From a virus: a stretch of DNA of 64,000 bases. Below are positions 20,852 through 61,550 of this stretch, piece after piece (positions within the stretch are counted from its first letter, which is position 1; every line of letters begins with the position of its first letter). The notes below the pieces were generated by a model. That model saw only the letters and a list, made by a program, of their open reading frames with translations. It searched no databases and was not told where the DNA came from. The stretch is taken from the IMG/VR virus record IMGVR_UViG_3300027742_000001, positions 1-64,000 of that record. One strand, 5' to 3'. Made by a program: the position numbers and the translations under genes.

Positions 20852-22003
20852 ATGAGAGAGCAAAAAGTTATAGATGAAGTTATAGAGATGAATAGTTTCT
20901 ACGATTTATCTGAATATGATTTTACATTAGGTTATGATGAAAAGTCTAAAGTTATATGTCCTAAACATGGAATCCTAAGTAGAAGATTTAGAGATTTAAA
21001 GAGAGGTCTTACTTGCGTAGAATGTAATAAAGAAAGATATGTAAATGTTCAAAGAGAAAGTACCGAAGGTTTCATAAGTAAAATTAATAAAAAATTTATT
21101 AATCATACTATTGATTGGGAAGGATTTGAATATCCAAAAATGCAACATAATAAAATAACTTTAAAATGTAAAAAGCATGGTGCATTTGAAACTACCCCAA
21201 ACAGAGCTTTAAATGTTGCTCTTTCTCCTTGTGTTCAATGTTCATGTGAAATGAGAGGAGTTAGTAATGTTGGAGACAAGAAATCTTTTTTAAAGAAAGC
21301 TAAGGAAAAGTATGGAGATAAGTATTCCTATGATAGATTAGTTTTCAAAAGGTTAAAAGATGATGTAGAGATTTATTGTAATATACATAAAGAGTATTTT
21401 ATGATAATGGCTAATAACTTTATATATTCAGCTAAGATTGGTTGTCCTAAATGTATCCAAGACAAGATTAAGGAAACACAAAGAGTAACTCAAAAGGAGT
21501 TTATTAGGAGGTGTAAAGAGACTCATGGTAATAAATTTGATTTAGGTAATGCTATATATGATGGAGGAACTAGAAAAGTAGAAGTTAAGTGTAATATATG
21601 TAATAATATTTTTTATCCAATAGCTGATAATTTCTCTAAAGGGTCAGGATGCCCCTATTGTGCGAATATATCTAAATTTAATAAATGGAAAGATGAACCT
21701 ACAAGATTATACGTATTAAGATTATACAACGGATTATATAAAATTGGAGTTACTATAAATACAGTAATCAAAAGATACCATAAAGATTTAGAGAGAGATA
21801 AGTATGAAATAATTTATGAGGAATTTTTCAAAGAAGGGAGAGAGCCTTTCAGTATTGAACAAAAAATTAGACACTTGATGTGGGAATATCATTATGAAGG
21901 GGAGAGTCCTTTTAGAGTTACAGGTACTAATGAAGTTTTCACAGTAAACCCAATAAAATATATTGAATTAGCAAAACAACAGATTAAAGGAGGCAAAAAC
22001 TAA
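20852..22003 (+). CDS. GIY-YIG homing endonuclease with zinc-ribbon repeats
   Basis: 383 aa. Four repeats of a zinc-ribbon-like unit of about 55-65 residues (each ending in a C-x2-C such as LTCVEC, SPCVQC, IGCPKC and SGCPYC) precede a GIY-YIG-type nuclease domain from about residue 288: LYVLRLYNGLYKIGVT, a downstream IKRYH arginine, and the glutamate-containing SIEQKIRHLMWE. Such proteins cut an unoccupied target and spread their own gene. It begins two bases after the polymerase stop, with AAAAAAGGAG inside the polymerase end, so it is co-transcribed. The - strand protein at 55730 shares this architecture. Confidence 0.8.
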   Translation: MREQKVIDEVIEMNSFYDLSEYDFTLGYDEKSKVICPKHGILSRRFRDLKRGLTCVECNKERYVNVQRESTEGFISKINKKFINHTIDWEGFEYPKMQHNKITLKCKKHGAFETTPNRALNVALSPCVQCSCEMRGVSNVGDKKSFLKKAKEKYGDKYSYDRLVFKRLKDDVEIYCNIHKEYFMIMANNFIYSAKIGCPKCIQDKIKETQRVTQKEFIRRCKETHGNKFDLGNAIYDGGTRKVEVKCNICNNIFYPIADNFSKGSGCPYCANISKFNKWKDEPTRLYVLRLYNGLYKIGVTINTVIKRYHKDLERDKYEIIYEEFFKEGREPFSIEQKIRHLMWEYHYEGESPFRVTGTNEVFTVNPIKYIELAKQQIKGGKN

Positions 22004-38413: not shown

Positions 38414-39049
38414 TTACCCTTGAAATTTAATTACATTATATAATTTAATAACTCTATTTAACCAACCTTTTTGGAACTTAATATTAGAAGGTTTATATTC
38501 CACAGTTTCTAATATATCATCAACCCTTTCAATAAGTAAAGCATAAGCAATCTCTTGTTCAGAAACCTTTGAAAGAACTTTGTCTAAGGCTTTATATGAG
38601 TTAGTACCAACATAACCATCAACTTCAATATGTTCTTCTTTAGGTAAATTATTATTAATAATTTTTTGTAAGTTCTTACTTATTCTTTTGAAACCAAAAA
38701 GAACAGTTCCATCAGTTATTATTAAACCTAAATTAAAATCAAATCTTTCATAACCATATTTTTTATAATAGTTTGAGTAATAAAAGTCAGTAACTTTATC
38801 TTGAAATTCTACATTATTAGAGGTTTCTTTATTTATTTCTGCTGTAGAGTATCCTTTATCTAATAAAGAATCTATGTATTCCCAACCTTCCCATTTTGGG
38901 TGGAACTTTCTAGCAATACCTTGTATAGTCATTCCTCCACTATCTTCAGCTATATTAGAATATCCACCTTCAAATTTATTTATAAAAGAGTGTATCTTTT
39001 TAAACTTATCTAATTGATTTGTGTTTTCAGTATTTTTAGTGTTTTCCAT
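38414..39049 (-). CDS. Endolysin, GH108-type muramidase with PG-binding domain
   Basis: 211 aa. Cleaves the glycan strands of peptidoglycan at lysis. The N-terminus shows the GH108 signature: FINKFEGGYSN with the catalytic-type glutamate E27, then EDSGGMTIQGIA, and the helical core. Residues about 140-205 (VDGYVGTNSYKALDKV then QKGWLNRVIKL) match the peptidoglycan-binding partner domain usual in this family. No signal peptide, so it needs the holin at 41786. Last gene of the late transcript. Confidence 0.85.
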   Translation of the reverse strand: MENTKNTENTNQLDKFKKIHSFINKFEGGYSNIAEDSGGMTIQGIARKFHPKWEGWEYIDSLLDKGYSTAEINKETSNNVEFQDKVTDFYYSNYYKKYGYERFDFNLGLIITDGTVLFGFKRISKNLQKIINNNLPKEEHIEVDGYVGTNSYKALDKVLSKVSEQEIAYALLIERVDDILETVEYKPSNIKFQKGWLNRVIKLYNVIKFQG

Positions 39050-40802: not shown

Positions 40803-41021
40803 CTATTTACCACATTCTTCTAATTGTAATGATAATTTATATTGTTTTATCATCCAATCATTTACCTCTGAATCTTTTAAATCAAGAATCTTATTTGTAA
40901 CTTCACTTGAAGGAATGGGATAAGTAGGGCATATACTATTTATTTTCACCCCACACCCTACTAACATCATCAATACTGATATTAGACTCAGATATTTTAT
41001 TATATTCTTTAAGCTTTTCAT
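40803..41021 (-). CDS. o-spanin-like lipoprotein
   Basis: 72 aa. A lipoprotein signal ISVLMMLVGCG puts the lipidated cysteine at residue 23; the mature part of 50 residues is proline-containing at first (CPTYPIPSS), then helical. Its first 86 bases overlap the preceding gene in another frame. Overlap of a small lipoprotein gene with a membrane coiled-coil gene beside the endolysin is the known layout of Rz1/Rz spanins, which fuse inner and outer membrane at lysis. Confidence 0.7.
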   Translation of the reverse strand: MKSLKNIIKYLSLISVLMMLVGCGVKINSICPTYPIPSSEVTNKILDLKDSEVNDWMIKQYKLSLQLEECGK

Positions 41022-41139
41022 TATCTTCCCTTAATTGTTCGTTTTCGGTATCTTGTTTAGCACTTCTCCAAACAAACAAAAAGGGTAAAACCTCTTTAAG
41101 TATATCAAACATTGTACTTATTAATTTTACCCAATCCAT
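40936..41139 (-). CDS. i-spanin-like protein (67 aa)
   Basis: Hydrophobic N-terminus (WVKLISTMFDILKEVLPFLFVW) as membrane anchor, then a charged coiled coil (ENEQLREDNEKLKEYNKI) that would reach into the periplasm. The 3' part overlaps the o-spanin gene. The anchor is interrupted by charged residues and the periplasmic arm is short, so the call rests mainly on gene arrangement. Confidence 0.6.
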   Translation of the reverse strand: MDWVKLISTMFDILKEVLPFLFVWRSAKQDTENEQLREDNEKLKEYNKISESNISIDDVSRVWGENK

Positions 41140-41355: not shown

Positions 41356-41814
41356 TTAATCACACCAAGTTTTAACTTTCTTACCACCGTAGTATTCTAT
41401 TGCTAAGTTATTCTTTATTAACTCTTTTGTTAAAGAAACTTTTCCACAATAAGGTTCGGCAACTATTCTAAAATACTTACCTCTTTGGACTTTCTTTAAA
41501 ATAATACTTTCTTTACATTGTTTTAAAAAGTTATATGTAAAGTGCATAGCTACTAAAGACATTTCTTTTTCATAAGAGCATTTAGCACCTCTCTTTTCGG
41601 GAGTATCTACACCAAACACTCTTATTGAAATATTATTACCAATTAAGTTAGGGAAAGAGTTTATATTAACTCTAAAAGTATCTCCGTCATATACAGATAA
41701 GATTTTATTTACTTTAATATCTTTATATATTTGTTTCCCTAAAGTGTTGCTTGGTAAGAATATCAATAGTAATATAATTAATATACTACTTAACAGCTTT
41801 CTCAGCACTTGCAC
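41356..41814 (-). CDS. Exported thermonuclease-family (SNase) nuclease
   Basis: 152 aa. A signal peptide covers about residues 1-26 (basic start, long leucine/isoleucine core, NTLG). The nuclease core VYDGDTFRVN (D43), RVFGVDTPEKRG (R65, D70, T71, E73) and RGKYFRIVA keep the calcium ligands and catalytic arginine and glutamate of staphylococcal nuclease. It should cut DNA or RNA outside the cytoplasm. The start lies 29 bases inside the holin gene. Possible roles are clearing released host DNA at lysis or degrading incoming rival DNA. Confidence 0.8.
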   Translation of the reverse strand: MQVLRKLLSSILIILLLIFLPSNTLGKQIYKDIKVNKILSVYDGDTFRVNINSFPNLIGNNISIRVFGVDTPEKRGAKCSYEKEMSLVAMHFTYNFLKQCKESIILKKVQRGKYFRIVAEPYCGKVSLTKELIKNNLAIEYYGGKKVKTWCD

Positions 41815-42118
41815 CTACATTCTCAATTTGACCAAGTTTACTTTGAATAAGAGTTTCGATTGAATCACCATATTTTTCAATAACTTTTGGGTCAATTTTA
41901 TCAATGTATTCTTTTGCTGTTGCCATTTTTCCTGAGTACTCTATATTCTCAATTTTATTTTTAGCATAAGCCTCTGCAATTTCCTCTGCATAAGATATAG
42001 CATTAACAATTAATTTCTCAATATCTTCATTTTCAATTTTATCTTTAGCTAATATAACTAAATATCCAAACCCTACACTAAATAGTATTCCAACTATTGT
42101 TAATAATAATACTTCCAT
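41786..42118 (-). CDS. Holin-like protein, LLH type
   Basis: 110 aa. One N-terminal hydrophobic span, residues 3-24 (VLLLTIVGILFSVGFGYLVI), followed by a helical cytoplasmic part (NAISYAEEIAEAYAKNK, ATAKEYIDKI), the pattern of LLH-family phage holins. Position upstream of nuclease, spanins and endolysin agrees. It would control the time of lysis. Confidence 0.65.
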   Translation of the reverse strand: MEVLLLTIVGILFSVGFGYLVILAKDKIENEDIEKLIVNAISYAEEIAEAYAKNKIENIEYSGKMATAKEYIDKIDPKVIEKYGDSIETLIQSKLGQIENVGASAEKAVK

Positions 42119-42152: not shown

Positions 42153-42878
42153 TTAATACTGTAACTTATTTTTGTCACTTTCCTCAAGAACCTTTTGAAA
42201 ATCTCTTATGAACTCGGTTTCATAATCACTTAATAAAACTTTTAAAGAATCCATTTTAATATTCTTTCTTAAATTAGAAAACAATATTGTACTTACATCT
42301 TCAATAAATTTATCTTCTAAATAACTTTTCCTAAAATAATTACTTAGAACACCAATCTTTGAGCTAAACTTACTTAGTTTACTATTGAAGTAAAGTACTC
42401 TTCTTTGTACATCTGATTTAATCTTCTTTTTACAGTTAGTTATGTTTTTATCTTTAATACATTCTTGGGGATACCTTGCTGTTAAGAGTTTTTCATAATA
42501 AGATAATTCAACAGAATGGTGTACCTTTAACATATCTGTCATAATAATTACTGCTTGTTCATTATCTAAAGTAACTTTACCTACACTATCTCTTATAAGT
42601 TCTATTCTATTATCAATGTACTCAAAACTTCTTTCATAATTCTCTTGTAAATTATTTAAAGACCACCAAAGCACAGCTACTATGACAGACATTTCAGCAG
42701 TTTTTCTAGCACCCCACCATATTTGAGACTGTTTTTTATCTTTTTCTTTTTTCTTTTCAACTTGCTCAATTATATTATTTAACATATCTTCTAATAATAT
42801 ATGGTGGTCTTCTTTTTTCTCTTGGGCTTTTGATAAGTTGAATTTTTCATATTCTGTTATGTTATCTATTTCAGTCAT
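42153..42878 (-). CDS. Membrane coiled-coil protein of unknown function (241 aa)
   Basis: An N-terminal charged coiled coil (LEDMLNNIIEQVEKKKEKDK), one hydrophobic span (TAEMSVIVAVLWWSLNNL, residues about 61-78), then about 160 residues of helices with two cysteines (YPQECIKDKNITNC). It has no histidine-kinase motifs. The gap to the response regulator gene is 12 bases and the holin follows. It may be a membrane partner for the regulator or part of lysis control; both are inference. Confidence 0.6.
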   Translation of the reverse strand: MTEIDNITEYEKFNLSKAQEKKEDHHILLEDMLNNIIEQVEKKKEKDKKQSQIWWGARKTAEMSVIVAVLWWSLNNLQENYERSFEYIDNRIELIRDSVGKVTLDNEQAVIIMTDMLKVHHSVELSYYEKLLTARYPQECIKDKNITNCKKKIKSDVQRRVLYFNSKLSKFSSKIGVLSNYFRKSYLEDKFIEDVSTILFSNLRKNIKMDSLKVLLSDYETEFIRDFQKVLEESDKNKLQY

Positions 42879-42890
42879 ATTAAGCCTTAA

Positions 42891-43376
42891 TTATATTATT
42901 TTTAGTAAGATTTGTTGAATTGCCTCATATGCTTGTCTATGTATGACTGTTTCTTTTAAAGTTTTTGTTTCAATAAGTTCCCATTCTCTATTAGTAAATA
43001 TTGTAATTAAGTCTTGAATAATGTTTCTTATTTCAAGGGGTTTAATATGAATTCTTCTTATACAAGGAAACTTTTCTAATTCATCTTTAAGTTGTTCATA
43101 TGCACTACATACTATAAAAGCTGTTTGCATTTGTAACTTAGATATTTCTTTTATAAGCTCTATTCCATTGACATTAGGCATTTTCATGTCTGTTACAACA
43201 ACCTTTATAGGTTTATTACTATTAAGTCTTTCCTTAAAAATATCTAATGCAACTTTTCCATCCTCAGCAGTAACTACATTAAAACCTATTGTTCTAAGTT
43301 GCTCTGCTGTTTTCTCTCTTATTAATACTTCATCTTCAACTAAAAGGATTTCAGTACTTGTTGTTTCTATAATCAT
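42891..43376 (-). CDS. CheY-like response regulator receiver protein
   Basis: 161 aa. A single receiver domain with every catalytic residue in place: acidic pair E14-D15 in LLVEDEVLIR, phosphoacceptor D63 in VVTDMKMPN, S91 in IVCSAYE, and K112 in IHIKPLE. Receiver domains switch conformation when phosphorylated by a histidine kinase. A C-terminal extension of about 40 helical residues follows, without a DNA-binding domain. Codon use matches the neighbouring late genes. It lies between fibre and lysis genes and is transcribed with them, an unusual place for such a protein. Possible targets are host chemotaxis or two-component signalling. Confidence 0.88.
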   Translation of the reverse strand: MIIETTSTEILLVEDEVLIREKTAEQLRTIGFNVVTAEDGKVALDIFKERLNSNKPIKVVVTDMKMPNVNGIELIKEISKLQMQTAFIVCSAYEQLKDELEKFPCIRRIHIKPLEIRNIIQDLITIFTNREWELIETKTLKETVIHRQAYEAIQQILLKII

Positions 43377-43400: not shown

Positions 43401-43613
43401 TTACTCAGAAGGTTCAACATAATCTAATCCTTTAACATCAATATCCCAATATATTAAGTCAAACTCTCCTGCTGGATTAGGTGTATCAGAAATACAAGTA
43501 CAAGCACTCCCATTAAATAAAACCACTTCAGGGGTATAGTATCTTTTACCTGAATCACATCTACCTTTTATTGTACAATCTTTTCTTGCTCTAACATGAT
43601 TTGCATAAGACAT
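43401..43613 (-). CDS. Small protein with four cysteines (70 aa)
   Basis: Cysteines at 13, 19, 38 and 40 (KDCTIKGRC, SACTC) in a strand-rich frame (YYTPEVVLFNGSACTCIS). Ends with acidic residues. Lies just downstream of the fibre chaperone; probably a virion or fibre-associated protein, not recognised. Confidence 0.6.
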   Translation of the reverse strand: MSYANHVRARKDCTIKGRCDSGKRYYTPEVVLFNGSACTCISDTPNPAGEFDLIYWDIDVKGLDYVEPSE

Positions 43614-44174: not shown

Positions 44175-45005
44175 TTAACACACAAACATTACGTTTATAT
44201 TATTAGCATCACCAGCTCCTGATGATTGACCTGTTACAATTCTACATTGTGTAGTTGTTTTTAAAGATGGAGCATTCCCTAGTCCTGTACTTTTTAGCCC
44301 AAACGATGAAGGAGAATCATCTTCATTACAACCCGATACAGCATAATCAGCAGTAGGTAAAGCTGTTGCCATATTTATTGTATAATCTCCTGTTCCATTA
44401 TCTGTAATACTTGCTACGTTTCCATTATTTCTGATAGCAACTACACCTATACCATTAAAGTTTACCCATGCTCTAATTGCATATATTGGTGCTGTTCCAC
44501 TTGCATTTAAGGCTGTTTTTGCTCTTTCATCATTTGTAGTCCATGTAGTCTCTTCGGGTTTATCTTCATATTCTAGTTTACCACTAGATGTCTTATATAC
44601 TAATATCCTATCATTTGCAATATTAGTATCATCTATCTCTTTATCTTTTACTCCCCCTAAAATAATAGAATAGTTTGGTACTGTTGCTATAATATTAGAA
44701 CCACTTGTTATACTTGAAGTTGAAAATTGAATACTAGCCCCATTTAAAGAATCATCTATTATCTTGAAGTTTGTGTCTATAAATTCTGAAGATGAGGATT
44801 CTGCTAATTCATCAATAGCACTTTTTATATTATTACTTGACAACCCACTTGTTGTATTATCATATTCAATATTACTTGCAACTGTGGTACTATCAGTACC
44901 TAAACTATCTTCAATATATTGTCTAAAATCCTCAATATATGTTTTAAATTGACCTTGGGTTACATCATCTCTCCCAAGGTTATCTGCTTCTATTAATGTA
45001 CTCAT
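44175..45005 (-). CDS. Tail fibre protein
   Basis: 276 aa. The N-terminal part (DDVTQGQFKTYIEDFRQYIE, SSNNIKSAIDELAES) is a helical/linker region common in fibres. The C-terminal 110 residues carry IRAWVNFNGIG, VAIRNNGNVASITDNGTGDY and LPTADYAVSG, a beta domain found at the tip of many phage tail fibres and likely to contact the host surface. Follows the J-like gene, as in lambdoid phages. Confidence 0.78.
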   Translation of the reverse strand: MSTLIEADNLGRDDVTQGQFKTYIEDFRQYIEDSLGTDSTTVASNIEYDNTTSGLSSNNIKSAIDELAESSSSEFIDTNFKIIDDSLNGASIQFSTSSITSGSNIIATVPNYSIILGGVKDKEIDDTNIANDRILVYKTSSGKLEYEDKPEETTWTTNDERAKTALNASGTAPIYAIRAWVNFNGIGVVAIRNNGNVASITDNGTGDYTINMATALPTADYAVSGCNEDDSPSSFGLKSTGLGNAPSLKTTTQCRIVTGQSSGAGDANNINVMFVC

Positions 45006-45045: not shown

Positions 45046-48000
45046 CTAATTATTAATATACCCTTTTAATCGTATATCTACTAAACCTTCTACTTCACTA
45101 CCTAAATCATCAAAACATTTTAAAGTAGCACTTGTATTGGTTTTACTTATTACTTCTACTCGTGTAGCTGTACTTCCTATAAAACTTTGTAGAGTTGCTA
45201 CTACATTTTTTAAATTAGTTATATACTTAGTGTTTATGGTAGTACCTCCTATTAAGATATTTATATCCTCTAAACTTTCATCAATATCTTCTACATCTAC
45301 AATAATTTTTAATGCAGTTATACTTGGTCTAACTGTTCCCTCAATATAACTAACTCTAACTTCATATTGTCTAGTATATTGAACAGGGAAACCTCCTGTA
45401 TATAAATTCCAACCACTTTCTTCATACATCATATCTGAATCTGAACCATAAAAATTAAATACATCATTAGTATACATTGATAAAGGATAATACTCTCGAT
45501 ACTCTATTTTTTGACTTGCTGTACCTGAATACTCTATTAAAGCTGTTCCACTTCCATCAGGTATAAAAGAACCAATATAATACATAGGCTCAAATAATCC
45601 TTGATAAAAGTTCTCTCCATTATTTTTATCATAAAAAATATCTGAATCTAAATTATAATAAAAATATGCTGTTGAAGCTTCTGCTAATAAATCATTATTT
45701 GGTTGAACAACCCCTCCATAGATTTCTCCAATAAAACCTTCAGCATGATAATCTTTTTCATAAATAAGATTATCAATAAGAGTTTCTCCTTGGTTAAACT
45801 TAATATATTTTACATTTAAACTTTCATTTCCATATACATCAACAGCTTTTATAAGTAAGTTATACTGACCTTGAACTTTTGTAATATCGGCTTTATAAGG
45901 TGAGGTTTTAAGTATTCCTTCATGTATTTTAGTAGCAGTATTCCAATTTAAAGAATCCCCTACTTGATATTTAATAATATAACCACTTAAGTCAGGTGGC
46001 TTATTAATAATATCAAATACTAAAGTTTTAACCTCATTAGGTCTTCCACTAATTGTAAATATATCTACATCAGGAGGTAAAATATCATTGCCACTAACTG
46101 TATAACTTTGTTCAATAAAGTTACTTGGATTACCTATTTCTTGAATAAATATTCTATACCTATTTTCAATAAGTCCTGTATTTTCTGATATATAAGAACT
46201 CCCTTTTACATTTTTTCCTAAGTAAATTCTATTATCAGGAATATTAGGTAAAGGAGTTTCATCTTCACTAACAAAATCAGGGATAGCATAGATATTATAG
46301 GTACTTGTAGTAATTGCTGTCCAAGTAAATGTTAAAGTAATATTTGGGATACCAGCACTTGAAATATTCACATCTTCTGATATATTAAAAGTAAGCAACT
46401 CATTTGCAACTTCTAAAGAAGGAGTTATTGAGGTAATTAAATCATTATTATAATTAAAGTCTAAAATACTTGGGTTATAATCTGTTCCAGTAAACTTTGT
46501 ACTTAATTCTTTTCCAGTTCTTTTTACTTCAGTTAATCTTACTAAAAGAGCTTCATTATTATTCTCTCCAAAGATATAACTATTATAAACTTCTATATCA
46601 GAAGTATTAGGTAAAGGTATTGTATAAGTATCTGTTAAATCAGTATCCTCAATATAATAATCTGTAAAAGTATTATCTTGACTTTGTATCTTTAAAACAT
46701 ATACCTTATCAGAAGTTAAAGTAACAGGTTCTTCTAAAGTAACTTCTGAAGTATCTACTTCTTGAATTCTACCACCATTACCCCATAAAGGAACATCATT
46801 TTGAATAGCAACTATATCACCTACTTCACAAGTAACTCCTTTAATATCACTTTCCCAAGTGACTGTTCTTCTTTGGTACTTTGTAGTAGCTAACATATAT
46901 CTACCAAATACAATAGCTTCTGCTTTAGTAGTAATACCAACAGCATCTACTGTTGAGGTTTTAGGTGTAACTTTAGTATCATTTAAATCTTTATCAAGAA
47001 TGGTTACAGCATTAAGTTCATTTCTAATATCTTCATCAGGATATTGTATTTCTAACTCAGTTGCTAAATCTGATAAAGGAGTATAGCTTATTTGGAAACT
47101 TTCTTTTTTAATATCTCCAACATTAAACATATTTGTAATAGTTTGTATTCCATCAAAAACACATGTATACTTATTACCCCTAAGTAGTATTTGACCTCTA
47201 CCTAACTTACCTACCTTTTGACAAGCATCCCAAGGATTTGTTAGAGTATCAAAAGTTCCATTAAAGTTTAATTGTAAAGGATGTCCTAACTCTGTTAAGG
47301 TAATAAAATCTATACTAGCAAAATCTAATAAGAAATATATGTTAGTAATATTTGTGTCATTAAAATCTGAATTATAATCTTCAAAGGTGAATAAATAAAA
47401 CTCTCCACCAACATCTACACTATCAGTAATATCAATCAACCCATTATAAGAATATAATTCTCCATCATCCTTAGTTAGAGTAATTTGTGATAAACCTCTA
47501 TTATATGTAGATACTTCAATAGAAGTAATTTCTTGAATTATCTCAGATTTATAAACTTTTAATATATTCTCACTAGAATTATAAGTAAGTCTATCTGTAC
47601 TAAAGGTCTCATCAGAACTGATAATAGTTTCTTCTCTTATATGTTCTAAATCACAGAAACTAGCCCATTCAACAAATCTATCATAATCAATTTGAGAAGG
47701 TTTTATTTTAGCCCCATAGAAAGGATTAGTTAAAATATCATAACATACCCATGCTGGGTTATTATTTCTCGCTGTTATACTTTCAGTATAAATATCATTA
47801 GTATATAATGTCAAATCTTTTCTAGTTACTTTTGTAGTAATAGTTGGTATAGAACCCTCAATATGCTCAGTTGCTTTTAATTTTAAACCTAACTGTGCGA
47901 TACCTCCATAATTAATATCTGTTGTATTTATCTCCTCAATAAAGGAAACTTGCATAGTGGATTTAATATATATTGAACTAGGTATAGAACTCAATCTAGT

Positions 48001-49428
48001 GACTTTTACTTCATATTGCCCTAATTGTAAGGTTTCGTTTGAAAATATAGAACTTACATTAGGCTCTATACTAAAACTTATTGCTGAAGTTGAATTTCCT
48101 GAGTAGCTTAAAACTTCAGAATCCCCTATAAATATAGTTCTATAACTAATTCTATTTTCACTTTGTAACTCACCTTCAGTATATATAGGTTGATACTCAC
48201 AGGTATCGTCTGTACCACACATATTTGGAGTAGGGTTACTTATAGGAAAGGTGGAAGAATTATACTCTTTCCAATCTGTCCAATAAGAAATATATCTTGA
48301 GTTCCAATATGTATCTGTTGCATCCCTCTCATATATAGGATAACTAACAAAAACACTATATTGTTTTTGATATTTAGGTTCTTTAATATAAGTCCACTCA
48401 GTTTCTCCAACTAATCTATATCCTATACTATAATTTACTGAGTAAGTATTATAATTACCATTTGTAGTACTATAACTATAGAGACCATTTGGAAAAGAAA
48501 AATGTAATTTAAAGCTATCAATATTATCTGATTCAGTAGTAAATATATAAGGTTCATTATAATCTAAATTTCTGATAATATTCCCATTATTAAAAGTTGT
48601 ATCATCAAATCCATTCATAACTTCTTGTTCAAAAGTACCCCTAACTTGTTTAAAATATCCATCGCTTGTATCACTAATAAAACTATTATAAGGTTGCCCA
48701 TTTACATAAATATCAGCAGAATTTATTTCCTCAATTTCTCCGTAACATAAAGCTATTTGTAAAGATAACCAATCATCACTATTCTCATAATATTGTGATT
48801 TATTAATTTCTGTCCCACCTAGAACATGAGTACCATATAATACTGGTGTAGGTGAATTTACATCTCTATTAGTAGATATTCCGTCCCAAGAATATGTTTT
48901 AGAATCTGTCATATTATTAGACATATTTGCATCAGCATTTGGGTCACTTGGTGCTAACATTCTACTTATTAGCATCATACCACCAACAACAACTGCAAAA
49001 GCTACTACATAAGCTAAAGCTATGGCAATAGCTGAGGTTGCGGCGAAATAAGATATAATAGCACTAGCAATATACCCTACTGCCTCCCACTCTTGGTAAG
49101 GAAAATAAACTATAATATCTTTTTCTTGAACAATAATACTTTCTTGTTCTTCTTTTTCTTTAATAAGTTTACCATTATAAATAATACAATAATTAGTTTC
49201 ATCATATTCACTTGTCTGAACATATTCTATTAAAGGTTTCCCATGTAAAGCTGTTCTTTTTTTATTTATACTTAGTTTAAATGGATTAGGAATTTCTGTT
49301 ATAAAAACTGTACCAAAAGAAACTTTGTTAATATTTAAGTTTTTAATACTTTCTTTATAAGTATCTCTTATTTCAACAAAAGCTATTGAAGAAGGTACTA
49401 CTTGTTTAGCTTCTTTGTCTTTACTCAT
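45046..49428 (-). CDS. Central tail-tip host-specificity protein, lambda gpJ-like
   Basis: 1460 aa, the longest gene here. The N-terminus has a beta region with a KPLIEYV strand, then a glycine/alanine hydrophobic segment (residues about 117-155, including VGGMMLISRMLAP) found at this place in gpJ-type proteins. Next comes SPTPVLYGTHVLGGTEI with LQIALCYGEIEEI, a recognisable gpJ-type core. Fibronectin-like beta repeats make up the second half (for example TLTFTWTAITTSTYNIYAIP). It would form the tip hub and carry receptor specificity. It lies between NlpC-like and fibre genes, in lambda order. Confidence 0.88.
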   Translation of the reverse strand: MSKDKEAKQVVPSSIAFVEIRDTYKESIKNLNINKVSFGTVFITEIPNPFKLSINKKRTALHGKPLIEYVQTSEYDETNYCIIYNGKLIKEKEEQESIIVQEKDIIVYFPYQEWEAVGYIASAIISYFAATSAIAIALAYVVAFAVVVGGMMLISRMLAPSDPNADANMSNNMTDSKTYSWDGISTNRDVNSPTPVLYGTHVLGGTEINKSQYYENSDDWLSLQIALCYGEIEEINSADIYVNGQPYNSFISDTSDGYFKQVRGTFEQEVMNGFDDTTFNNGNIIRNLDYNEPYIFTTESDNIDSFKLHFSFPNGLYSYSTTNGNYNTYSVNYSIGYRLVGETEWTYIKEPKYQKQYSVFVSYPIYERDATDTYWNSRYISYWTDWKEYNSSTFPISNPTPNMCGTDDTCEYQPIYTEGELQSENRISYRTIFIGDSEVLSYSGNSTSAISFSIEPNVSSIFSNETLQLGQYEVKVTRLSSIPSSIYIKSTMQVSFIEEINTTDINYGGIAQLGLKLKATEHIEGSIPTITTKVTRKDLTLYTNDIYTESITARNNNPAWVCYDILTNPFYGAKIKPSQIDYDRFVEWASFCDLEHIREETIISSDETFSTDRLTYNSSENILKVYKSEIIQEITSIEVSTYNRGLSQITLTKDDGELYSYNGLIDITDSVDVGGEFYLFTFEDYNSDFNDTNITNIYFLLDFASIDFITLTELGHPLQLNFNGTFDTLTNPWDACQKVGKLGRGQILLRGNKYTCVFDGIQTITNMFNVGDIKKESFQISYTPLSDLATELEIQYPDEDIRNELNAVTILDKDLNDTKVTPKTSTVDAVGITTKAEAIVFGRYMLATTKYQRRTVTWESDIKGVTCEVGDIVAIQNDVPLWGNGGRIQEVDTSEVTLEEPVTLTSDKVYVLKIQSQDNTFTDYYIEDTDLTDTYTIPLPNTSDIEVYNSYIFGENNNEALLVRLTEVKRTGKELSTKFTGTDYNPSILDFNYNNDLITSITPSLEVANELLTFNISEDVNISSAGIPNITLTFTWTAITTSTYNIYAIPDFVSEDETPLPNIPDNRIYLGKNVKGSSYISENTGLIENRYRIFIQEIGNPSNFIEQSYTVSGNDILPPDVDIFTISGRPNEVKTLVFDIINKPPDLSGYIIKYQVGDSLNWNTATKIHEGILKTSPYKADITKVQGQYNLLIKAVDVYGNESLNVKYIKFNQGETLIDNLIYEKDYHAEGFIGEIYGGVVQPNNDLLAEASTAYFYYNLDSDIFYDKNNGENFYQGLFEPMYYIGSFIPDGSGTALIEYSGTASQKIEYREYYPLSMYTNDVFNFYGSDSDMMYEESGWNLYTGGFPVQYTRQYEVRVSYIEGTVRPSITALKIIVDVEDIDESLEDINILIGGTTINTKYITNLKNVVATLQSFIGSTATRVEVISKTNTSATLKCFDDLGSEVEGLVDIRLKGYINN

Positions 49429-55729: not shown

Positions 55730-56674
55730 TTAATTTAATTTATCTATGTTAAAAACATCTTTGTTAAATACTTCTGTATTGCCATTTGGTAAAAAACATT
55801 CTTTTCTTTTTACCTTATATTCTTTATAAAGATTTAAGTACCTTAGTTCTTCTTTGTAAGCATCTTCCCCTTTTAAGTATTTAGTAGATAGTAGTAAAAG
55901 AGGCTCATGCTCTCTAAACTCCTTAGCTCTAAATCTTTCTTTAATAGTGTTATCTTTAGTCGTTATTCCTATCTTGTAATAGTATTTCCCTTTATTTGTA
56001 AATCTGATATAATATAACCAAGTTGGTTTATCATAATAAGCTATAAATGTATTATCTGAGCTTCCCCTTTTCTCTTGTTTACATTCCTTACAAGATATAT
56101 GTCCTTTATATAAATGACTGATATGGCAGTCAAATATTGTATTATGCTCTAAACATTTTACACTATGTCTTCTTAATATTCTATCATGTTTTAATACTTC
56201 AAATTTATTAGGAAAAATAGAATCTACTTTATTTTGATAATATTCAAGGTCTTTTATTTGTTTATCTGAAGCATTTTTAGAGGCACACTCTTTACAAGTA
56301 TGCTTACCTTGTAATACTTCATAAGCGATTTGTTCAAACCATTTATTATGAATATTACATTTTAAGGTTACTTTATCATCTATTGTTTTATAGACTACTT
56401 TAGATAAATCTAATTTGTCACCCCATACCTCTTTAACTTTTTCTAAAAATCCTTTAGTAGTATGTTTATGTATCCTACCTTCACATTGAGGACACTTATT
56501 ACTTCTTTTATAGTTACCAAGTGTTCTATAAAACACATGATTACAATTTTTACAAGTAAATTTTATATTACTTTTAGCATTTTTATAATCTTTTTCATCA
56601 AAATAGAACTTACCATTTACAAGTTGAATCAATAACTTCTTAGTTTGTTCTACAGTTCTTTTCTTTTTTATCAT
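55730..56674 (-). CDS. GIY-YIG homing endonuclease with zinc-ribbon repeats
   Basis: 314 aa. Three zinc-ribbon-like repeats (ending NKCPQC, HTCKEC, ISCKEC) precede a GIY-YIG-type nuclease domain: TWLYYIRF, YYYKIGITTKDNTIKER and a later glutamate region EDAYKEELRY. It has the same architecture as the + strand protein at 20852 with one repeat fewer. It interrupts the conserved tail tube-to-chaperone order. Upstream, next to its AAAGG ribosome-binding site, is a complex RNA structure that may hold its expression down. Free-standing, no intron seen. Confidence 0.78.
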   Translation of the reverse strand: MIKKKRTVEQTKKLLIQLVNGKFYFDEKDYKNAKSNIKFTCKNCNHVFYRTLGNYKRSNKCPQCEGRIHKHTTKGFLEKVKEVWGDKLDLSKVVYKTIDDKVTLKCNIHNKWFEQIAYEVLQGKHTCKECASKNASDKQIKDLEYYQNKVDSIFPNKFEVLKHDRILRRHSVKCLEHNTIFDCHISHLYKGHISCKECKQEKRGSSDNTFIAYYDKPTWLYYIRFTNKGKYYYKIGITTKDNTIKERFRAKEFREHEPLLLLSTKYLKGEDAYKEELRYLNLYKEYKVKRKECFLPNGNTEVFNKDVFNIDKLN

Positions 56675-60065: not shown

Positions 60066-61550
60066 CTATTTTATGTGTTTAATATATACTTTGTTACCAC
60101 AATCCCAATATCTTAAGTAATCATTATTCAACATATTTTCATATTCAGTTAGATTAGAATCATATACTTCTAGTTTATCTTTTAACTTATGCTTCATAAA
60201 CTTTTGTCTATTAAGTACCTCTAAAGAGCCTTCTTTAAAATAATAATAATTAGGTTTACTTTCATGTGTAAAATAAAAACCTAATGATTCATATAAAGAA
60301 CCATCAAATATGCTCTTATCACAATAACTAACTAAAGTTCCTTTAAAGTTTCTTTCAAAGTATTTTAATAACTTACTCGCTCCTCCAATAACTGAAGTGC
60401 CTAATTTGTTACAAAATCTTATAAGTTCATAATCATGTTTATTACTAAATCTAGATTTTCCAAAAGTCATTATTGATACTAAATCATTATTATAAATTAA
60501 CCCATACTTTAATGTGCTTGAAGAATATCCTTGTAAATGATTATCATTAATAAAATCTTTTGCTTCCTTTGTGCTTAACTCAACTAAAGTACATTTTCTA
60601 GCATATATTTTATTAGTAACAATTCCTAATCTCTTTTTGATTAAATCTTTTATTATGTCTTGTTTATTAATCCATTGGTGTTCAAAGATATGTAATAATT
60701 GAATCCCTTTTTGATTTGCTACGTTTGTCTTGTTTAAGTGATAATCTTTTGTTTTACCTCTTATACCTTCTGAGTGCCAATACAATCCATTATATTCAAA
60801 CCCTATTGCTAAATCTTCAATATAAACATCTATTTCTTTTAAATCTAAAATTCTACTATTTTGAGTTATCTCTTTATCTGTTAAAGATTGAATAAATTCA
60901 TATAGTACTATTTCACCTTTAGATTTAACATTTTGACATCCACAAGAAGTTTTAGAGCCATTTCTTATATAAGTATTTTGCCATTCAAAAACTTCATCAC
61001 AAAAAGGACATTTAAACTTAGAGATATATCTATCAAAATCTTTGTGCTTTTTTATATTAGGTTCAACTACCTCAATATTATTTAAAGTTTGACCTTTTTT
61101 TGGTTTTTGTTTTCTTAATGTACACCCACATGATTTTCTACCTTTTTTACTAACCTCTTTAATAGTAGTAATAAAAGAATCTCCACAGTCTACACATTTA
61201 AACTTAGCTTTTCTATCTTTATGACTTGATTCAGTTTTTTCAATAGGAAATAATTCAAGTATCTCTACATTATATTTACCAATCTTTTGTCCTACTTTAT
61301 ACTTATTGTAAGGTAATTGACACCCACAAGATATTTTAGCATTAGTTCTCCCTCGTATAACGTGGTCTAAACTAGCTTCAAAAGGTTCTTTACAAAAAGG
61401 ACATTCAAAAATAGCTCTCTTTTGACTTCTATTTTTACCTTCAGGAATCCAATAATCAGTAAGCATTTTAACTTTCTGAGTTCCTACGTAATCACCTTTA
61501 TTATATTTTCTATTTCTTAGTTTATTTTGCTTATTTTTTTCTGTATCCAA
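60066..61550 (-). CDS. Putative homing endonuclease, EDxHD/Vsr-like, with zinc ribbons
   Basis: 494 aa. Three zinc-ribbon repeats with C-x2-C...C-G-C (FECPFCKEP...SCGC; FKCVDCGDS...SCGC; FKCPFCDEV...SCGC) precede a PD-(D/E)XK-type nuclease domain. KEIDVYIEDLAIGFEYNGLYWHSE there shows the E-x-D and E-x-N-G-x-x-W-H pattern of Vsr-like homing enzymes. The C-terminal 180 residues (AKDFINDNHLQGY, YELIRFCNKLG, LVSYCDKSIFDG) recur with such endonucleases. It starts with TTG behind AAAAAGGAG and has its own promoter, and it splits the capsid gene from the neck genes. Confidence 0.75.
   Translation of the reverse strand: MDTEKNKQNKLRNRKYNKGDYVGTQKVKMLTDYWIPEGKNRSQKRAIFECPFCKEPFEASLDHVIRGRTNAKISCGCQLPYNKYKVGQKIGKYNVEILELFPIEKTESSHKDRKAKFKCVDCGDSFITTIKEVSKKGRKSCGCTLRKQKPKKGQTLNNIEVVEPNIKKHKDFDRYISKFKCPFCDEVFEWQNTYIRNGSKTSCGCQNVKSKGEIVLYEFIQSLTDKEITQNSRILDLKEIDVYIEDLAIGFEYNGLYWHSEGIRGKTKDYHLNKTNVANQKGIQLLHIFEHQWINKQDIIKDLIKKRLGIVTNKIYARKCTLVELSTKEAKDFINDNHLQGYSSSTLKYGLIYNNDLVSIMTFGKSRFSNKHDYELIRFCNKLGTSVIGGASKLLKYFERNFKGTLVSYCDKSIFDGSLYESLGFYFTHESKPNYYYFKEGSLEVLNRQKFMKHKLKDKLEVYDSNLTEYENMLNNDYLRYWDCGNKVYIKHIK

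Follow-up and report, generated by a model that had tools for sequence, protein, structure and literature searches.

A stand-alone receiver protein encoded in the late operon of a phage, with counterparts in Alteromonas phages of unrelated types

The window analysed here is the first 64 kb (64,000 nucleotides) of the IMG/VR record IMGVR_UViG_3300027742_000001, which is 91,913 bases long. The record encodes a large terminase distantly resembling those of T5-type phages, a ribonucleotide reductase and a lambda-J-like tail tip protein; no tRNA genes were found in it. The host may be a low-GC Gram-negative, to judge from a GC content of 25-30%, the spanin-like genes and an Arcobacter plasmid that carries a near full-length match. 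Open reading frames resembling homing endonucleases, the translations of which show GIY-YIG-like ends and zinc-finger-like repeats, lie at 20852-22003, 55730-56674 and 60066-61550, among replication and head/tail genes. The features of the late region that bear on the receiver gene are the following:

45046..49428, minus strand: central tail tip protein J (PF13550; PHROG 31, E 3e-90)
44175..45005, minus strand: tail fibre (PHROG 11355), with an N-terminus 42% identical to the fibre of a related contig, L009
43617..44165, minus strand: 182-aa protein after the tail fibre, a candidate chaperone by position, with a weak pairwise match to its L009 counterpart and no Pfam match
43401..43613, minus strand: 70-aa, soluble-looking protein directly upstream of the receiver, with a weak likeness to the 108-aa protein at the same position in L009 (E 0.001, pairwise BLASTP)
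42891..43376, minus strand: stand-alone receiver (response-regulator) protein of 161 aa (PF00072, catalytic residues, AlphaFold2 model, Foldseek)
42153..42878, minus strand: 241-aa all-helical protein, candidate partner of the receiver (low-confidence model, hydropathy)
41786..42118, minus strand: 110-aa protein with an N-terminal transmembrane (TM) segment (residues 5-23, hydropathy 2.46) and a Lys-containing helical C-terminal part; no family match
41356..41814, minus strand: SNase-type nuclease with an N-terminal signal/TM segment (PF00565; PHROG 452, endonuclease)
40936..41139, minus strand: 67-aa candidate inner-membrane spanin (Rz-like), with a short hydrophobic segment and a helical tail, in a nested/overlapping pair with the next
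40803..41021, minus strand: 72-aa candidate outer-membrane lipoprotein spanin (Rz1-like), with the lipobox LVGC
38414..39049, minus strand: endolysin, glycosyl hydrolase 108 with a peptidoglycan-binding domain (PF05838, E 4e-13; PF09374; PHROG 315)

These genes are transcribed in the order J, tail fibre, 182-aa protein, 70-aa protein, receiver, 241-aa helical protein, 110-aa single-TM protein and nuclease, after which come a 63-aa protein, the overlapping spanin-like pair, another two genes and the GH108 endolysin. The receiver gene is separated from its neighbours by 12 bp downstream and 24 bp upstream, and a weak consensus scan found no minus-strand terminator-like site between 38.0 and 49.6 kb. 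The gene is part of a continuous late unit that runs from J to the endolysin, in line with a sequence-only reading of the window, which had placed the receiver with tail-fibre, membrane and lysis genes. The "membrane protein" that the same reading saw next to it did not stand: the 241-aa neighbour has a Lys-rich N-terminus and a weak hydrophobic segment at about residues 53-76 (maximum Kyte-Doolittle value 0.85), and the clear single-TM protein is the 110-aa product of the following gene, a candidate holin-like protein or membrane anchor. The model of the 241-aa protein is all-helical and of low confidence (pLDDT 43), and Pfam, PHROG, tblastn and viral-contig scans assigned it to no family. 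The staphylococcal-nuclease-like gene, the product of which looks exported, comes after the receiver block and before the spanin-like genes.

The receiver gene starts with ATG, preceded by an RBS-like AAGGA, and its product consists of a receiver domain at about residues 8-125 and a C-terminal helix at about 134-160. In the Pfam profile search PF00072 scored 62.6 bits (E 4.6e-17; curated cut-off 30.2 bits), and the protein matches 131 distinct PDB sequences, of which the top ones are nearly all receivers. The five phosphorylation residues (E14, D15, D63, S91 and K112) are all present, exactly where they had been placed from the letters alone. The AlphaFold2 model, built on a four-sequence alignment, has the (beta-alpha)5 fold followed by the further helix, with a pLDDT of about 80-93 across the receiver core, a mean of 76 and lower values in the helix. 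When this model was used in Foldseek, its structural neighbours in the PDB were receivers, and those in the viral library included a protein of Alteromonas phage V22, an uncultured-phage protein labelled "CheY FOG" and many giant-virus kinases. Two of the checks that had been suggested, profile search and structure prediction, both give a receiver, and the earlier claim of a complete, undecayed gene was borne out. It is well supported that the product is a complete stand-alone receiver, phosphorylation-competent by its residues, encoded in a phage late operon. Contamination with host DNA, named at the outset as one case that might undo the finding, was ruled out, since phage genes lie on both sides on the same strand, the late unit is intact and the GC and third-position GC of the gene (0.272/0.136) agree with those of the adjoining phage genes. 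A DNA-binding regulator of the PhoB/OmpR type was also rejected: the approximately 35 residues past the receiver form a single helix, and there is no output domain.

A scan of the whole 91.9-kb record found this one receiver only, and the histidine-kinase ATPase domain HATPase_c (PF02518) is absent from it. A phage-encoded cognate kinase was rejected on this absence, the 241-aa neighbour having no family and a poor model. Cellular relatives were sought within a single phylum, that of a Colwellia MAG, from which some 300 genomes were taken. The best matches share about 30-43% identity with the window receiver and are mostly receiver domains in long proteins. In 11 of the 12 loci read (L105-L116), the arrangement is that of hybrid histidine kinases, with a HATPase G-box upstream and the receiver C-terminal or almost so; the remaining locus is truncated, with kinase-like sequence ahead of the receiver. 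These C-terminal domains resemble the window protein in their intact catalytic residues, whereas the phage protein lacks the kinase domains and carries an extra C-terminal helix. In a small FastTree tree the window receiver groups beside hybrid-kinase receivers, on a long branch that wider sampling could shift. From these comparisons, it was probably captured from a hybrid histidine kinase of a host.

CheY shares with the window protein the receiver fold, the DD/D/S/K residues and the absence of a DNA-binding domain. However, the window protein is longer, and within the one phylum sampled hybrid-kinase receivers, not CheY, are its closest relatives. The position of CheY Tyr106, three before the conserved Lys, is occupied by Ile (RRIHIKP), which makes a CheY of the motor type unlikely, and no che or fli genes are found near the receiver, the surroundings of which are phage late genes only. 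CheY orthology is not supported on these grounds, and the specific link to CheY, CheA and motility that had been drawn from the letters was not sustained. Judged from the same comparisons, the label "CheY-like" is too specific for this protein.

By alignment of J, the nearest relatives of the phage are L009 (68% identity), L010/L011 (56%) and L012 (34%). A search at the same locus in related phages had been suggested; the receiver was not found in the available sequence of these contigs (many close relatives are fragments), nor in 40 of 41 more distant records, the exception being a partial match at a record edge, and a homologue scan of viral contigs found no close homologue. From the tail-fibre N-terminus to the endolysin, no proteins common to the window and L011 or L012 were detected, and in L009 the gene that follows the small protein is related (37.5% identity) to a 301-aa membrane protein of L011. 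Because this segment differs and the nearest relatives lack the receiver, the sequence comparisons identify the gene as accessory and the segment around it as swapped. A conserved core gene of the phage group was rejected, the receiver being absent from all the close relatives searched, many of them fragmentary. One of these relatives has a diversity-generating retroelement (L011:14665-17427 and L010:9110-11869), in which a reverse transcriptase (PF00078) follows a tail fibre. Its adenine-rich template repeat is at L011:16150-16257 (77% identical), and the last codons of the tail fibre differ between the two contigs, which are otherwise near-identical.

Receivers have been reported in the Alteromonas phages V22, A5 and R8W (PMC7289586, PMC10579305, PMC8228385). 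With tblastn, using a Foturvirus receiver, and by reading annotated regions, stand-alone receivers were found in H4/4, R8W, R9Y1/R9Y2/R9Y3, XX1924, PB15, V19, R22Y, V22 and A5. These lytic phages include podoviruses, siphoviruses, a myovirus and a schitovirus, and fall in unrelated types (Foturvirus, R9Y, PB15/XX1924, V22/A5 and V19/R22Y). Receivers also occur in several PHROGs. Receiver-containing "phage" records from Listeria, Salmonella, Acinetobacter and human faeces were left out, as they have the look of host DNA or of fragments lacking annotation. The "Pseudomonas phage" records Y1, Y11 and OQ658365 were also excluded, since they are either unverified or include housekeeping genes of bacteria. 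The receiver is not a one-off, and recurs among phages of several unrelated types; the earlier statement that such proteins are very rare in phages has to be qualified to this extent.

Each of these Alteromonas phage receivers adjoins tail/fibre and lysis-type genes, in at least four genome types. The gene order is holin, 1-TM protein (coiled coil), receiver, 2-TM protein and TerS in H4/4 and R8W; 1-TM protein, receiver and GH108 lysozyme in R9Y2; 1-TM coiled coil, receiver and M15 peptidase in PB15; 1-TM coiled coil, receiver, DUF5675 and GTA_holin_3TM in XX1924; and helical protein with a weak N-terminal TM segment, receiver, Rz-like, holin-like and endolysin genes in V22 and A5. The product of the preceding gene is a small coiled-coil protein, anchored in the membrane by a single predicted TM segment (weakly predicted for V22 and A5), whose coiled-coil or charged part is predicted to lie in the cytoplasm; the gene overlaps the start of the receiver gene in most phages, and its products in H4/4 and R9Y2 show homology to each other (E 5e-11). 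The gene that follows encodes a lysozyme, an M15 peptidase, a DUF5675 protein, an Rz-like protein or a two-TM protein. In the seven receiver-bearing records searched, each has a single receiver and none a HATPase_c match over the cut-off.

The receivers of V22 (gp30) and A5 (gp11) are similar to that of the window in being stand-alone, single-copy proteins of the late region, 147-149 aa long with a short C-terminal extension, and their genes sit after tail fibre and chaperone and before the Rz-like, holin-like and endolysin-type genes. They differ from it in their sequence (15-19% pairwise identity, in a separate phage clade) and in the helical gene with a weak N-terminal TM segment that precedes them, the window having none upstream. 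They have been termed class II AMGs (PMC7289586, PMC10579305) and were assigned by the authors to the host-recognition module, not the lysis module; their genes travel with fibre and chaperone genes (PMC10579305). In Foturvirus, H4/4 gp44 and R8W g48 (PMC8228385), 92% identical to each other, are stand-alone 153-aa receivers of the lysis region with no output domain, annotated as "DNA-binding response regulator" or "PhoB"; their lineage differs from that of the window phage. Overall, the published labels of Alteromonas receivers are "CheY-like AMG", "hybrid sensor histidine kinase - response regulator" and "PhoB" (PMC7289586, PMC10579305, PMC8228385). The annotations at L081:5998-6459 (H4/4), L091:3001-3462 (R8W) and L093:5750-6199 look wrong, these being bare receivers of about 150 aa, and a Pfam scan found no DNA-binding or kinase domain in those of L081 and L093. 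No link of phage receivers to lysis was found in the open-licence literature.

In the small tree the Alteromonas phage receivers form one clade (0.97 local support) and the window receiver lies outside it, so that common descent with them was not recovered for the window protein. Since it falls outside, the tail-fibre-to-endolysin slot appears to have been filled by receivers independently, that is convergently, in the window phage and in the Alteromonas phages. The window phage is like them in having a stand-alone receiver inside this region and unlike them in having no membrane-anchored coiled-coil gene directly before it, its helical and TM genes being downstream. Of the nine Alteromonas phage receivers in the tree, seven retain the full catalytic set. 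The other two, in the lysis regions of V19 and R22Y (L089:4998-5450 and L092:4001-4463), are degenerate viral pseudo-receivers: the phosphoacceptor Asp is replaced by Pro/Thr and the Lys by Ile/Leu, and the Ser/Thr is lost, the receiver domain being still recognisable. As Asp and Lys are missing there, phosphorylation is not needed in every such phage, and these proteins point to a binding role that may not strictly need phosphate.

We tentatively propose, with a probability of roughly 40%, that the window protein is a late receiver fed by host kinases and acting at an envelope or lysis step. Its expression would come late in infection, as part of the tail/lysis transcription unit. Because the record has no histidine-kinase ATPase domain, the phosphate on D63 would come in vivo from kinases of the host, or from small phosphodonors that report the energy state of the cell. 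The phosphorylated or the unphosphorylated form would then act at the envelope or on lysis, most likely by binding a neighbouring small helical or membrane protein (the 241-aa or the 110-aa product), and lysis timing or envelope state would be adjusted to the condition of the host. The intact active site and fold, the single receiver with no HATPase_c, the late unit, the membrane-anchored coiled-coil genes before the Alteromonas receivers and the use of the same slot in unrelated phages argue for this reading; the position of the helical and TM genes downstream of the receiver, the weak hydrophobicity of the adjacent one, an endolysin nine genes away, the degenerate receivers of V19 and R22Y and the published placing of the V22/A5 gene in a host-recognition module (PMC10579305) argue against it. 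Accessory genes commonly land between tail fibre and endolysin, which makes location by itself weak evidence, and the co-location of receiver and lysis genes is only suggestive. The earlier idea that the receiver gates lysis gains real, though indirect, support because unrelated phages place receivers in the same slot. The broader proposal that several unrelated phage types have independently put a phosphorylatable receiver and small membrane-anchored helical partners in the lysis cassette, where host signals would gate lysis and a lytic phage would read host kinases in deciding when to lyse, is doubtful.

The main rival to the envelope or lysis reading, itself rather unlikely, is a phosphoryl sink or decoy: late in infection it would divert phosphoryl groups away from kinases of the host (hybrid kinases, CheA) and blunt envelope-stress, motility or other host signalling, the position of the gene near lysis genes setting its late timing only. 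An intact receiver with no output domain, resembling the receiver domains of hybrid kinases, which are participants in phosphorelays, in a record with no kinase ATPase domain, speaks for a sink. It would leave unexplained, however, the repeated pairing of receivers with membrane coiled-coil and lysis genes and the loss of the phosphoacceptor in V19 and R22Y, and late expression is an odd time for rewiring host signalling. That loss, in receivers that are still recognisable, would instead suit a scaffold that works independently of phosphorylation and serves a membrane-anchored partner or the tail-fibre/chaperone module, as would the fibre and chaperone genes that accompany the receivers of V22 and A5 (PMC10579305). 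The catalytic residues, however, are all retained in the window protein and in the other seven phage receivers examined; a role as pure scaffold would not lead selection to preserve them, and we consider this explanation improbable.

A passenger gene without particular benefit, picked up recently by a region that takes in accessory genes, is in our view also improbable. The nearest relatives without the gene and the lack of a close homologue in viral contigs are in its favour, but the codon composition is phage-like, neither reading frame nor active site is damaged, the protein has diverged to about 40% from its best cellular matches, and phages have used this slot repeatedly. A CheY orthologue controlling the flagellar motor, to which a stand-alone receiver with CheY-type catalytic residues might point, is very improbable given the hybrid-kinase relatives, the missing aromatic residue and the absence of chemotaxis genes nearby.

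The timing of lysis in lytic phages is usually viewed as set by holin accumulation and, in T4, also by superinfection. If the envelope or lysis reading is true, receivers repeatedly placed in lysis regions would open a direct line from host two-component signalling into the phage. The Alteromonas examples infect cultured hosts, and the lysis idea is therefore testable now. Even with no link to lysis, the finding corrects the labels "PhoB", "hybrid kinase" and "CheY AMG" for a recurrent class of output-less phage genes.
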